From Halorubrum tebenquichense DSM 14210 (GTDB lineage: Archaea > Halobacteriota > Halobacteria > Halobacteriales > Haloferacaceae): 64,000 nucleotides of DNA. The stretch spans positions 1 through 64,000 of the forward strand of contig NZ_AOJD01000060.1 of NCBI RefSeq assembly GCF_000337415.1. Reading direction: 5' to 3'. Of this stretch, positions 39,969-41,874 are shown piece by piece (the stretch's first letter is position 1; each line of letters starts with the position of its first letter). The translations under genes and the position numbers were made by a program. A model generated the notes under the pieces. That model worked only from the letters and a program-made list of their open reading frames with translations. It did no database searches and was not told the origin of the DNA.

Positions 39969-40907
39969 TCAGCGGTAGCCGAACGACTCCGCGAGCAGTT
40001 CCTCGTCGGTGTCGCCCACGGTGTAGACGGGGCCGTCGACCACGTCGACGGTGACCTGCGCCGGGGCGAACACGCTCTCGGGCACGTCGTAGAAGTCCCA
40101 GTCGGCGTCCTCGAACACCTCGACGAAGGGCGTCCCGTACTCCTCGCTCGCGGTGGAGACGATCTCGGAGAACCGGTCGTCGTCGCGCGCGACCTGGAGG
40201 TGGACCTCGCCGCCGTACGCCAGGGCGTCGTTCGTCCGCCCCATCGCCTCGGTCTCGTCGCGGGTCGGGGGCGCGAGCGGCGCGGCTCCGGACGCGTGGA
40301 GCACGTCCGTCGGCTCGTAGCCGACCTCCAGCAGGCGGAAGACGGCGAGTTCGGCGGCGCGGGCCGCCGTGGTGACGGAGCCGGCGGTCGAGCCGGTCGC
40401 GAACGTCGGGAGGAACACGCCGTCGGTCTCGACCTCGGCCAGCTCCGCGACCTGCTCCGCGACCTCCTCGTCGGGCAGCGCCGTCGACTCGATCGTCAGC
40501 GTGGCGAACTCGGAGGAGTCGTAGTAGCCGACGCGCTCGAACTCGGTCTCGCGGCCGACTAAGGCGCGGGCCGGGCCGGAGCCGAGCCCCTCGAAGCCGC
40601 CCTCGGTCGTGAGCTCCCAGCCGGCCTTCTGCGAGCAGAGCAGCGCGACCGCGGGGTGGTCCGTCGACAGCTCGACGTACTGGCGGGGCGCGCCCGCGAG
40701 CTTCCCCATTCGCGTCTGCAGGTTCGCCAGCCCGGCGGTCTGTATCTCCGCGAGCAGCAGCCCCGCTTCGACCCCGCCGGCCGCGTCGATTCCGAAGTCG
40801 ACGACGGTGGCTCCGTTGTCCAACTCGTAGCCGACGACGTCCAGCTCGCCGGCGAAATCGAGCGCCTCGTCGACCAGCTCGATCGCGGTCCGGTTGATGC
40901 TCTCCAT
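39969..40907 (-). CDS. mch: Methenyltetrahydromethanopterin cyclohydrolase-like protein
   Basis: A 312-residue enzyme that interconverts methenyl- and formyl-tetrahydromethanopterin in methanogens; haloarchaea, which are not methanogens, are known to carry mch homologues and probably use them in folate-type C1 metabolism. The protein starts MESINRTAIELVDEALDFAG. The central GGVEAGLLLAEIQTAGLANL, LSTDHPAVALLCSQKAGWEL and GYEPTDVLHASGAAPLAPPT blocks are diagnostic. The frame is open far upstream, but a TATA box (GTTTAAGG) at 40929-40936 places the start at 40907. The length matches the family. Confidence 0.93.
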   Translation of the reverse strand: MESINRTAIELVDEALDFAGELDVVGYELDNGATVVDFGIDAAGGVEAGLLLAEIQTAGLANLQTRMGKLAGAPRQYVELSTDHPAVALLCSQKAGWELTTEGGFEGLGSGPARALVGRETEFERVGYYDSSEFATLTIESTALPDEEVAEQVAELAEVETDGVFLPTFATGSTAGSVTTAARAAELAVFRLLEVGYEPTDVLHASGAAPLAPPTRDETEAMGRTNDALAYGGEVHLQVARDDDRFSEIVSTASEEYGTPFVEVFEDADWDFYDVPESVFAPAQVTVDVVDGPVYTVGDTDEELLAESFGYR

Positions 40908-40928
40908 GTCGACGCCTACTCGCTCACC

Positions 40929-40936
40929 GTTTAAGG
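40929..40936 (-). promoter_or_regulatory. TATA box of mch
   Basis: GTTTAAGG on the plus strand (CCTTAAAC on the coding strand) lies 22-29 nt upstream of the mch ATG at 40907, as expected for a leaderless message. Confidence 0.6.
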
Positions 40937-41020
40937 GGTTTGGCTGTTGGGCGCGAGCGGCGGCGTCTCCCTCGCAAGTGTGCTTAAATAACCGCGGCGG
41001 TCGGCGCGCGCCTCCGAGCG

Positions 41021-41260
41021 CCTTTTTAAGGGCGCGAGGAGCGCCGTGCGAGGGAGTCGGCGGTCCGAAGCGAAGCGGAGGACCGCCGACGAGGCTGGGG
41101 AGGCGTGAGGTGCTGTGTGGAGCGGTGCGGGGCGGGACTCGAAGGGGCAGCTGCGAGGCGGGCGCAGGCGACGTAAGCACCGAAGCGAGGGAGCGAGTGA
41201 AACGAGCGACCGAGTGAGGCGCGCAGCGAGCGTGCGCCCGCCTCGCGGCTGGGGCTTCGG
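41021..41260 (+). ncRNA. Candidate structured RNA or repeated element with its own TATA-like box
   Basis: A gene-free 466-nt gap (40908-41373) holds this strongly folded segment. CTTTTTAAGG at 41021-41030 looks like a TATA box pointing right. About 26 nt later begins a perfect 11-bp inverted repeat (41056-41066 with 41080-41090). Further on, a perfect 14-bp inverted repeat pairs 41153-41166 (GCGAGGCGGGCGCA) with 41233-41246. Between them lies GGGACTCGAAGGGGCAGC and a Glu/Arg-like series of GAGCGA repeats. From memory, sequences containing GGACTC-AAGGGGCAGC recur between genes in haloarchaeal genomes, so this may be a dispersed repeat rather than a unique RNA. Confidence 0.4.
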
Positions 41261-41264
41261 TGGT

Positions 41265-41342
41265 GTTCGTGTCGATCAGGTGTTTATAAATGAGTACGTG
41301 TAGCCGAGCGGCTGTCTCTTCGATGTTGTTCGTCTCGATCAG
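41265..41342. repeat. Pair of near-identical 15-mers next to the folded element
   Basis: GTTCGTGTCGATCAG at about 41266-41280 and GTTCGTCTCGATCAG at about 41327-41341 differ in one base and lie 61 nt apart in the same orientation, with TGTTTATAAATG (a second TATA-like box) after the first copy. They could be duplicated ends of an element. Confidence 0.45.
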
Positions 41343-41373
41343 CGGCCGACCAGCACGACGCCCACATCCGTAG

Positions 41374-41874
41374 TCACCAGAAACCGCCGTCGGAGTCGCC
41401 GACGCCGCTCGGTCCGCTCGGTCCCTGGGGACCGCTCGGCCGCGGATCCGGGTTGATCTCGACGGGCTCCGACTCCGCGTCCGGATCGATCTCGCGGCCC
41501 TCCTCGTACCGGACGAACGAGAGGTAAAAGGCCTCGCCGCAGCCGACGCCCTCGGCGTCCGGCTCCCGGTACGGCTCGTCGCCGCCCACGTCGGTGCCGC
41601 GCACGCCGTCGTGCGGGTCCCACTCGACGCCGTCGCTCTCGCCGCAGACGAACCGGACGCCGTCCGCCCCGGCGGAGTCTCCATCGCCGCCTCCGTTCCC
41701 CTCGGCGGAGTCTCCATCGCCGCCCCCGTCCGCGTCGAACGGTTCCGTGGGCGCGGCGTACGTCCACCCCTCCAGCGGGTACGGGGTCACCGACTTGTCC
41801 GCGAGGTACCCCTCGCGTTCGAGCGCGACGAGCGTCCCGCAGTGGGGACAGTAGTACGTGACCGGGTAGCTCAT
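41374..41874 (-). CDS. Zinc-ribbon-like protein with Gly/Asp and Gly-Pro-Ser repeats
   Basis: A 166-residue acidic protein starting MSYPVTYYCPHCGTLVALER, with one CxxC pair at residues 9-12 and further Cys at FVCGESD and GVGCGEAFYL, enough for a partial zinc ribbon. Residues about 45-70 contain two copies of GGGDGDSAxG, and the C-terminus has QGPSGPSGVG (collagen-like Gly-Pro-Ser triplets) ending GGFW. The ATG at 41874 follows the Cys motif naturally; an in-frame start at 41922 would overlap the promoter of the divergent hydrolase. Function unknown. The repeats are probably flexible linkers. Confidence 0.65.
   Translation of the reverse strand: MSYPVTYYCPHCGTLVALEREGYLADKSVTPYPLEGWTYAAPTEPFDADGGGDGDSAEGNGGGDGDSAGADGVRFVCGESDGVEWDPHDGVRGTDVGGDEPYREPDAEGVGCGEAFYLSFVRYEEGREIDPDAESEPVEINPDPRPSGPQGPSGPSGVGDSDGGFW

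Follow-up and report, generated by a model that had tools for sequence, protein, structure and literature searches.

The window analysed here, a stretch of 64,000 nt from Halorubrum tebenquichense DSM 14210, contains a folded intergenic unit. One neighbour is mch (methenyltetrahydromethanopterin cyclohydrolase; 39969-40907, minus strand; TIGR03120 match), whose 5' end faces the unit, and the other is a small hypothetical gene (41374-41874, minus strand; no NCBIfam match), which faces it with its 3' end. A codon-usage gene caller trained on the window left 40908-41373 non-coding, in agreement with the first-pass annotation, which had recognised no coding potential in this region. The core strand of the unit is antisense to both neighbours. 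Several ORFs were listed across the window copy; the unit seeds such false ORFs in haloarchaeal genomes and merits annotation there. Assemblies may also break at the unit, and some copies were located less than 100 bp from contig ends. A TnpB family gene (guided_TnpB, NF040570; 42894-44270, minus strand) with no TnpA nearby ends approximately 1.6 kb from the unit, and only three TnpB-like matches were present in the whole genome. At the mch site, the unit was found, whole or in part, in approximately 15 close species and was absent from more distant ones.

The unit spans 40997-41268 on the plus strand, as defined by a family profile match and by 40-odd aligned copies from its own genome, which align in the order P1, P2, invariant block, core, P3 and tail (all described here on the plus strand). 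The P1 hairpin (41004-41048), recognised from perfect-stem counts and from arms that change in step, consists of an outer helix (GCGCGCGC / GCGCCGTGCG) that is imperfect in the window copy, TCC (41013-41015) paired with GGA (41038-41040), a conserved GAG/GA internal loop and an inner stem (41018-41023 with 41030-41035). The two perfect inverted repeats described in the first-pass annotation were confirmed, and both sit inside this larger unit of ~270 bp, whose 3' tail can be repeated in tandem. The first, of 11 bp (GTCGGCGGTCC, 41056-41066, paired with GGACCGCCGAC, 41080-41090), provides the arms of the P2 hairpin (41056-41090), which is followed by an invariant block (GAGGCTGGGGAGGCGTGAGG, 41091-41110) that is unpaired in the model and conserved in nearly all aligned copies. 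The second, of 14 bp (GCGAGGCGGGCGCA, 41153-41166, paired with TGCGCCCGCCTCGC, 41233-41246), belongs to P3 (41140-41259). This helix continues outward through CAGCT/GGCTG, which completes a long stem of 41148-41166 with 41233-41251, and through a GGG/GGG internal loop to a base formed by CGAAG (41140-41144) and CTTCG (41255-41259); its inner helix contains a covarying pair at 41178-41221. The core (GGGACTCGAAGGGGCAGC) occupies 41134-41151. The folding of the region was stronger than that of 200 of 200 dinucleotide shuffles on both strands (z -5.3 and -3.6).

The 3' tail (41247-41345) comprises a unit of GCTGGGGCTTCGG..GTGTTCGTGTCGATCAG..TTTATAAA with a degenerate second copy from ~41310, and other copies carry one to five tail units within 300 bp. 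At the 3' ends of L009, L025 and L045, the tail (46-75 bp, with TTTATAAA) was arranged in tandem up to ~5 times. We also observed a small double-hairpin module (TCGCCGGCGGC..GCCGCCGGCTGCCAGAG..CTCGCTG) inserted in P1, P2 or P3 of some copies, as in P2 of L031 and L060, P3 of L059 and the 5' ends of L020 and L027; the module looks like a further element of smaller size. A further inserted segment (~GGAAGTC.CAGCCCGC...GAGCAGGACCGTCTTCCGG), positioned before the core or inside P3, recurred in distant species (L056, L171, L191 and L196).

The unit is present in high copy number. Allowing up to two mismatches, the core had 104 matches in its own genome, and a DNA search of the same genome gave at least 47 matches (40 of the 214 candidates scored). 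Forty-nine of 52 genomes of the genus contained the core, with up to 167 copies in the genus search, and in a sample of the class a 15-base core was found in 263 of 391 genomes, with up to 169 copies and controls near zero. Carriers beyond the genus include Haloarcula, Halorussus, Haladaptatus, Haloglomus, Salinarchaeum and Halobellus. The link drawn in the first-pass annotation between the core and repeated intergenic sequences of haloarchaea is supported, and the family extends across the class. G+C-rich genomes do yield chance stems, as random segments demonstrated, but an origin of the feature as chance palindromes in G+C-rich intergenic DNA has a negligible probability and is refuted by the core matches, against a single match for the control, and by covariation far above that of shuffles. 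Two near-complete genomes of the genus had no or nearly no copies (G067, 0; G075, 0-1), which indicates that the unit is not essential. Viral, phage and plasmid collections gave no match except for one partial copy on a Halorubrum salinarum plasmid. The few bacterial core matches had no downstream arm and look like chance. In other haloarchaeal families, head-to-head copies, core to core, were frequent and form a compact double unit with a nearly fixed distance of 46-47 bp between core starts (e.g. L156, 6245-6301, and L114, ~3954; genomes G164, G319, G357 and G398).

Compensatory base changes, the mark by which structured non-coding RNAs are recognised and which the first-pass annotation had suggested looking for among copies, were found in P1, P2 and P3. 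In P3, 94.2% of cells were standard pairs and 770 double changes were counted in 151 distinct copies, as opposed to at most 66.9% paired and 327 double changes in column shuffles, the P3 counts being inflated by the relatedness of copies and by conversion. The copies from other families had been picked by their CTT[TC]C end, a choice that biases the two pairs at the base of P3 but leaves the rest of the helix unaffected. Between lineages and families, the two sides of the P3 base changed together (CTCGAAG/CTTCGG, CTCAAAG/CTTTGG and CTGAAAG/CTTTC), and the inner pair 41178-41221 was C-G in 26 and G-C in 10 copies of the H. tebenquichense genome, with 0 mismatched. Within the genus, the core was mostly CTCGAAG in G000, G072, G016, G021 and G024 and partly so in G007, and was CTCAAAG elsewhere. 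P1 and P2 diverge widely in sequence among copies while their arms remain complementary; as copies differ in length, their pairing was scored by stem searches. A perfect stem of at least 6 bp was found in 91% of 98 distinct P1s (9% when shuffled) and in 75% of 71 distinct P2s (15% when shuffled), the latter having 43 different 5' arms.

Copies were found only between genes. Across the 1.6 Mb covered in the relative G016, 80 of 80 copies were located between predicted genes, 62 of them near full length and 40 on each strand, and in other taxa 0 of 78 copies were inside genes. Units occupied 9.2% of convergent, 4.6% of tandem and 5.2% of divergent gaps in G016, so that occupancy of convergent gaps was double that of tandem ones (p 0.008). 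When the gene upstream points at the unit, a median of 38-59 bp separates its stop codon from the start of the unit. The orientation of the unit towards genes was unbiased, and neither a conserved neighbour gene nor an enriched flanking family was found in the G016 flanks or beside copies in other taxa.

Comparison of the two species revealed that sites are conserved: flanks in G016 could be assigned to 24 sites of H. tebenquichense, and at 22 of these the unit is present there too (20 found by script, all in the same orientation, with L044 and L046 added from alignments). At the other two, G016 has no unit, and neither of these sites is cleanly empty. The copies at shared sites are nevertheless as different from each other as unrelated copies. 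Identity between species was 99-100% at four shared sites and at several others no closer than that of random paralogs; the similarity rank of ortholog copies varied between 1st and 57th among 63, and L014 was a mosaic. Since several shared-site copies are closer to other copies, sequence seems to have been exchanged between copies in place, re-insertion at the same position being less likely.

These observations bear on the view that the unit is a non-autonomous mobile element of the PATE or MITE type, in which the hairpins would be single-stranded DNA folded for a transposase and the covariation would reflect the recognition of DNA hairpins and the correction of palindromes, RNA having no function. 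Such an element would account for the high and patchy copy number, the neighbour genes that are not conserved across families, the long, near-perfect arms with few wobble pairs, the lack of a clear strand asymmetry inside helices and the smaller hairpin modules inserted into P1, P2 and P3. We consider it unlikely, however, in view of the 22 sites common to two species. In addition, none of 30 loci with a Y1 transposase and 3 with TnpB resembled the family profile (best E 0.39), and G016, G019, G002, G004 and G005 hold 39-100 core copies with no match to a Y1 transposase (TnpA), although copies may have been mobilised in the past. The short interrupted inner helix also covaries, and the unpaired blocks are invariant. 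MITE-type terminal inverted repeats were not found, as the 5' end (GCGGTGGCGCG) and the 3' end (CTTCGGCGGTGTT) are not inverted repeats, and no target-site duplication was found, the comparison being confined to the two sites empty in G016, which are not clean.

In the first-pass annotation, transcription was expected to begin at about 41056, behind a TATA-like box at 41021-41030. The TATA-like string (CTTTTTAAGG) is indeed present, and it forms the loop and upper stem of P1. In other copies, this loop reads GAA, ACC, CTC and others, which shows that the string is a variable hairpin loop and not a conserved promoter; the start at 41056 was rejected along with it, and the discrete RNA of ~200 nt that the annotation had proposed is putative. 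Instead, copies of the family are preceded by an A+T box at positions -14 to -6 relative to the unit (A+T content 56% vs 31% nearby), represented in the window copy by CTTAAATAA at 40983-40991, ~13 bp upstream on the plus strand. This box was TATA-like in 22 of 101 copies, with a peak at -13, and more often so where the upstream gene could not use it. It is a better, if only suggestive, candidate for a promoter than the string at 41021-41030. The usual haloarchaeal promoter spacing would put the start near +17, a predicted position that falls inside the P1 5' arm and would omit the 5' arm of the outer P1 helix.

The same evidence bears on a second alternative, in which every copy of this dispersed family is a separate gene, with a promoter of its own, for a small RNA that acts in trans, and in which concerted changes in the core are driven by a protein or RNA partner that all copies share. 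The A+T box at a fixed place before many copies, the conserved fold with a P3 base pair switched genome-wide and an orientation independent of neighbours are consistent with such genes. The recognisable TATA string in only 22% of copies, the implied start inside P1, the genomes of the genus that have no unit and the many degraded copies argue against them, and we regard this alternative as quite improbable. The strand tests gave a mixed picture. Counted by column, G.T exceeded A.C mismatches by 73 to 22; we did not rely on this asymmetry, as it was absent for mid-helix mismatches (15 to 16 and 5 to 6), and folding energy revealed no strand preference. Because these tests disagree, the selected fold may be that of RNA or of single-stranded DNA; the unpaired blocks, which are invariant, and the inner helix, which is short and interrupted, speak for RNA.

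The feature is best explained as one copy of a class-wide, dispersed, non-coding, structured intergenic family of haloarchaea, a reading that taken as a whole stands about an even chance; its high copy number, its placement between genes only, its fold with compensatory changes and the conservation of its sites between close species are shown. The G-rich strand would function in single-stranded, folded form, most probably as an RNA transcribed from the A+T box that lies 13 bp upstream. The copies may have spread long ago as a non-autonomous element, would now be mainly inherited in place and would be homogenised by recombination (gene conversion) between copies. Such conversion would explain the lineage-wide switch from G-C to A-U at the P3 base, and the same exchange would explain the split between CTCGAAG and CTCAAAG cores across the genomes of the genus. 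At a single locus, the unit would most likely work in the manner of REP/BIME, by folding where genes border on each other and transcripts end, a role that we prefer over that of a protein-linked guide RNA. More tentatively, the family could constitute a new structured RNA class of Halobacteria, with putative expression from up to ~170 dispersed loci per genome, at fixed sites whose copies swap sequence.

To place the unit among known systems, we compared it with other dispersed or structured elements. Rfam 15 gave no match at the gathering threshold in the window or in 12 copy-bearing loci, and nothing meaningful under relaxed conditions (E up to 5). The literature searched, exclusive of subscription papers and supplements, contained no description of the unit; one may exist. 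OMEGA RNAs (TnpB or IscB/HEARO) are structured, sometimes present in many copies and also found without an adjacent nuclease gene, while some of their copies overlap a tnpB or iscB gene or lie next to one. The unit is likewise structured and multi-copy, but its copies have no nuclease gene next door, and it shows no similarity to TnpB loci and has no Rfam match. The 1.6 Mb of G016 yielded a single weak TnpB match, at a distance of 37 kb from the closest copy, and the TnpB flanks in the unit's own genome did not contain the unit. The PATEs (palindrome-associated transposable elements) of haloarchaea are short and non-coding, contain palindromes, occur in well over 100 copies per genome and have no obvious terminal inverted repeats or target duplications (PMC3119063). 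The unit resembles them in being short, non-coding and palindromic, with more than 100 copies per genome and no terminal inverted repeats. In contrast, the PATE palindromes are near-terminal and related to IS605-type ends, and PATEs are moved in trans by a TnpA (Y1) transposase, whereas the unit has no such relation and its sites are stable.

Dispersed palindromic repeats are known mostly from bacteria. ERIC and BOX repeats are intergenic and modular, fold as RNA and have variable inserted modules; the unit is also intergenic and modular with variable inserted modules, but it is archaeal, spans a class and is unrelated to them in sequence as far as tested. REP/BIME elements with RAYT in Enterobacteria and Pseudomonas are dispersed intergenic palindromes at hundreds of loci that are homogenised, the REP palindromes being short (20-40 nt) and accompanied by a RAYT gene. 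The unit is similarly dispersed, palindromic, located between genes and apparently homogenised, but its ~270 bp form three hairpins and include unpaired blocks that are invariant, and it needs no Y1/RAYT partner, as several copy-rich genomes have no Y1 family member. It spans a whole archaeal class with a conserved multi-helix fold, clear covariation, stable sites and signs of sequence exchange between sites. With it, one can ask whether repeats of this kind work at the level of RNA or of DNA, and how gene conversion keeps repeats uniform in polyploid archaea. On the best reading, it is a class-wide structured intergenic repeat, REP/ERIC-like in habit and RNA-like in conservation, and it fits best among the dispersed structured intergenic repeats, as a new variant that spans the class.
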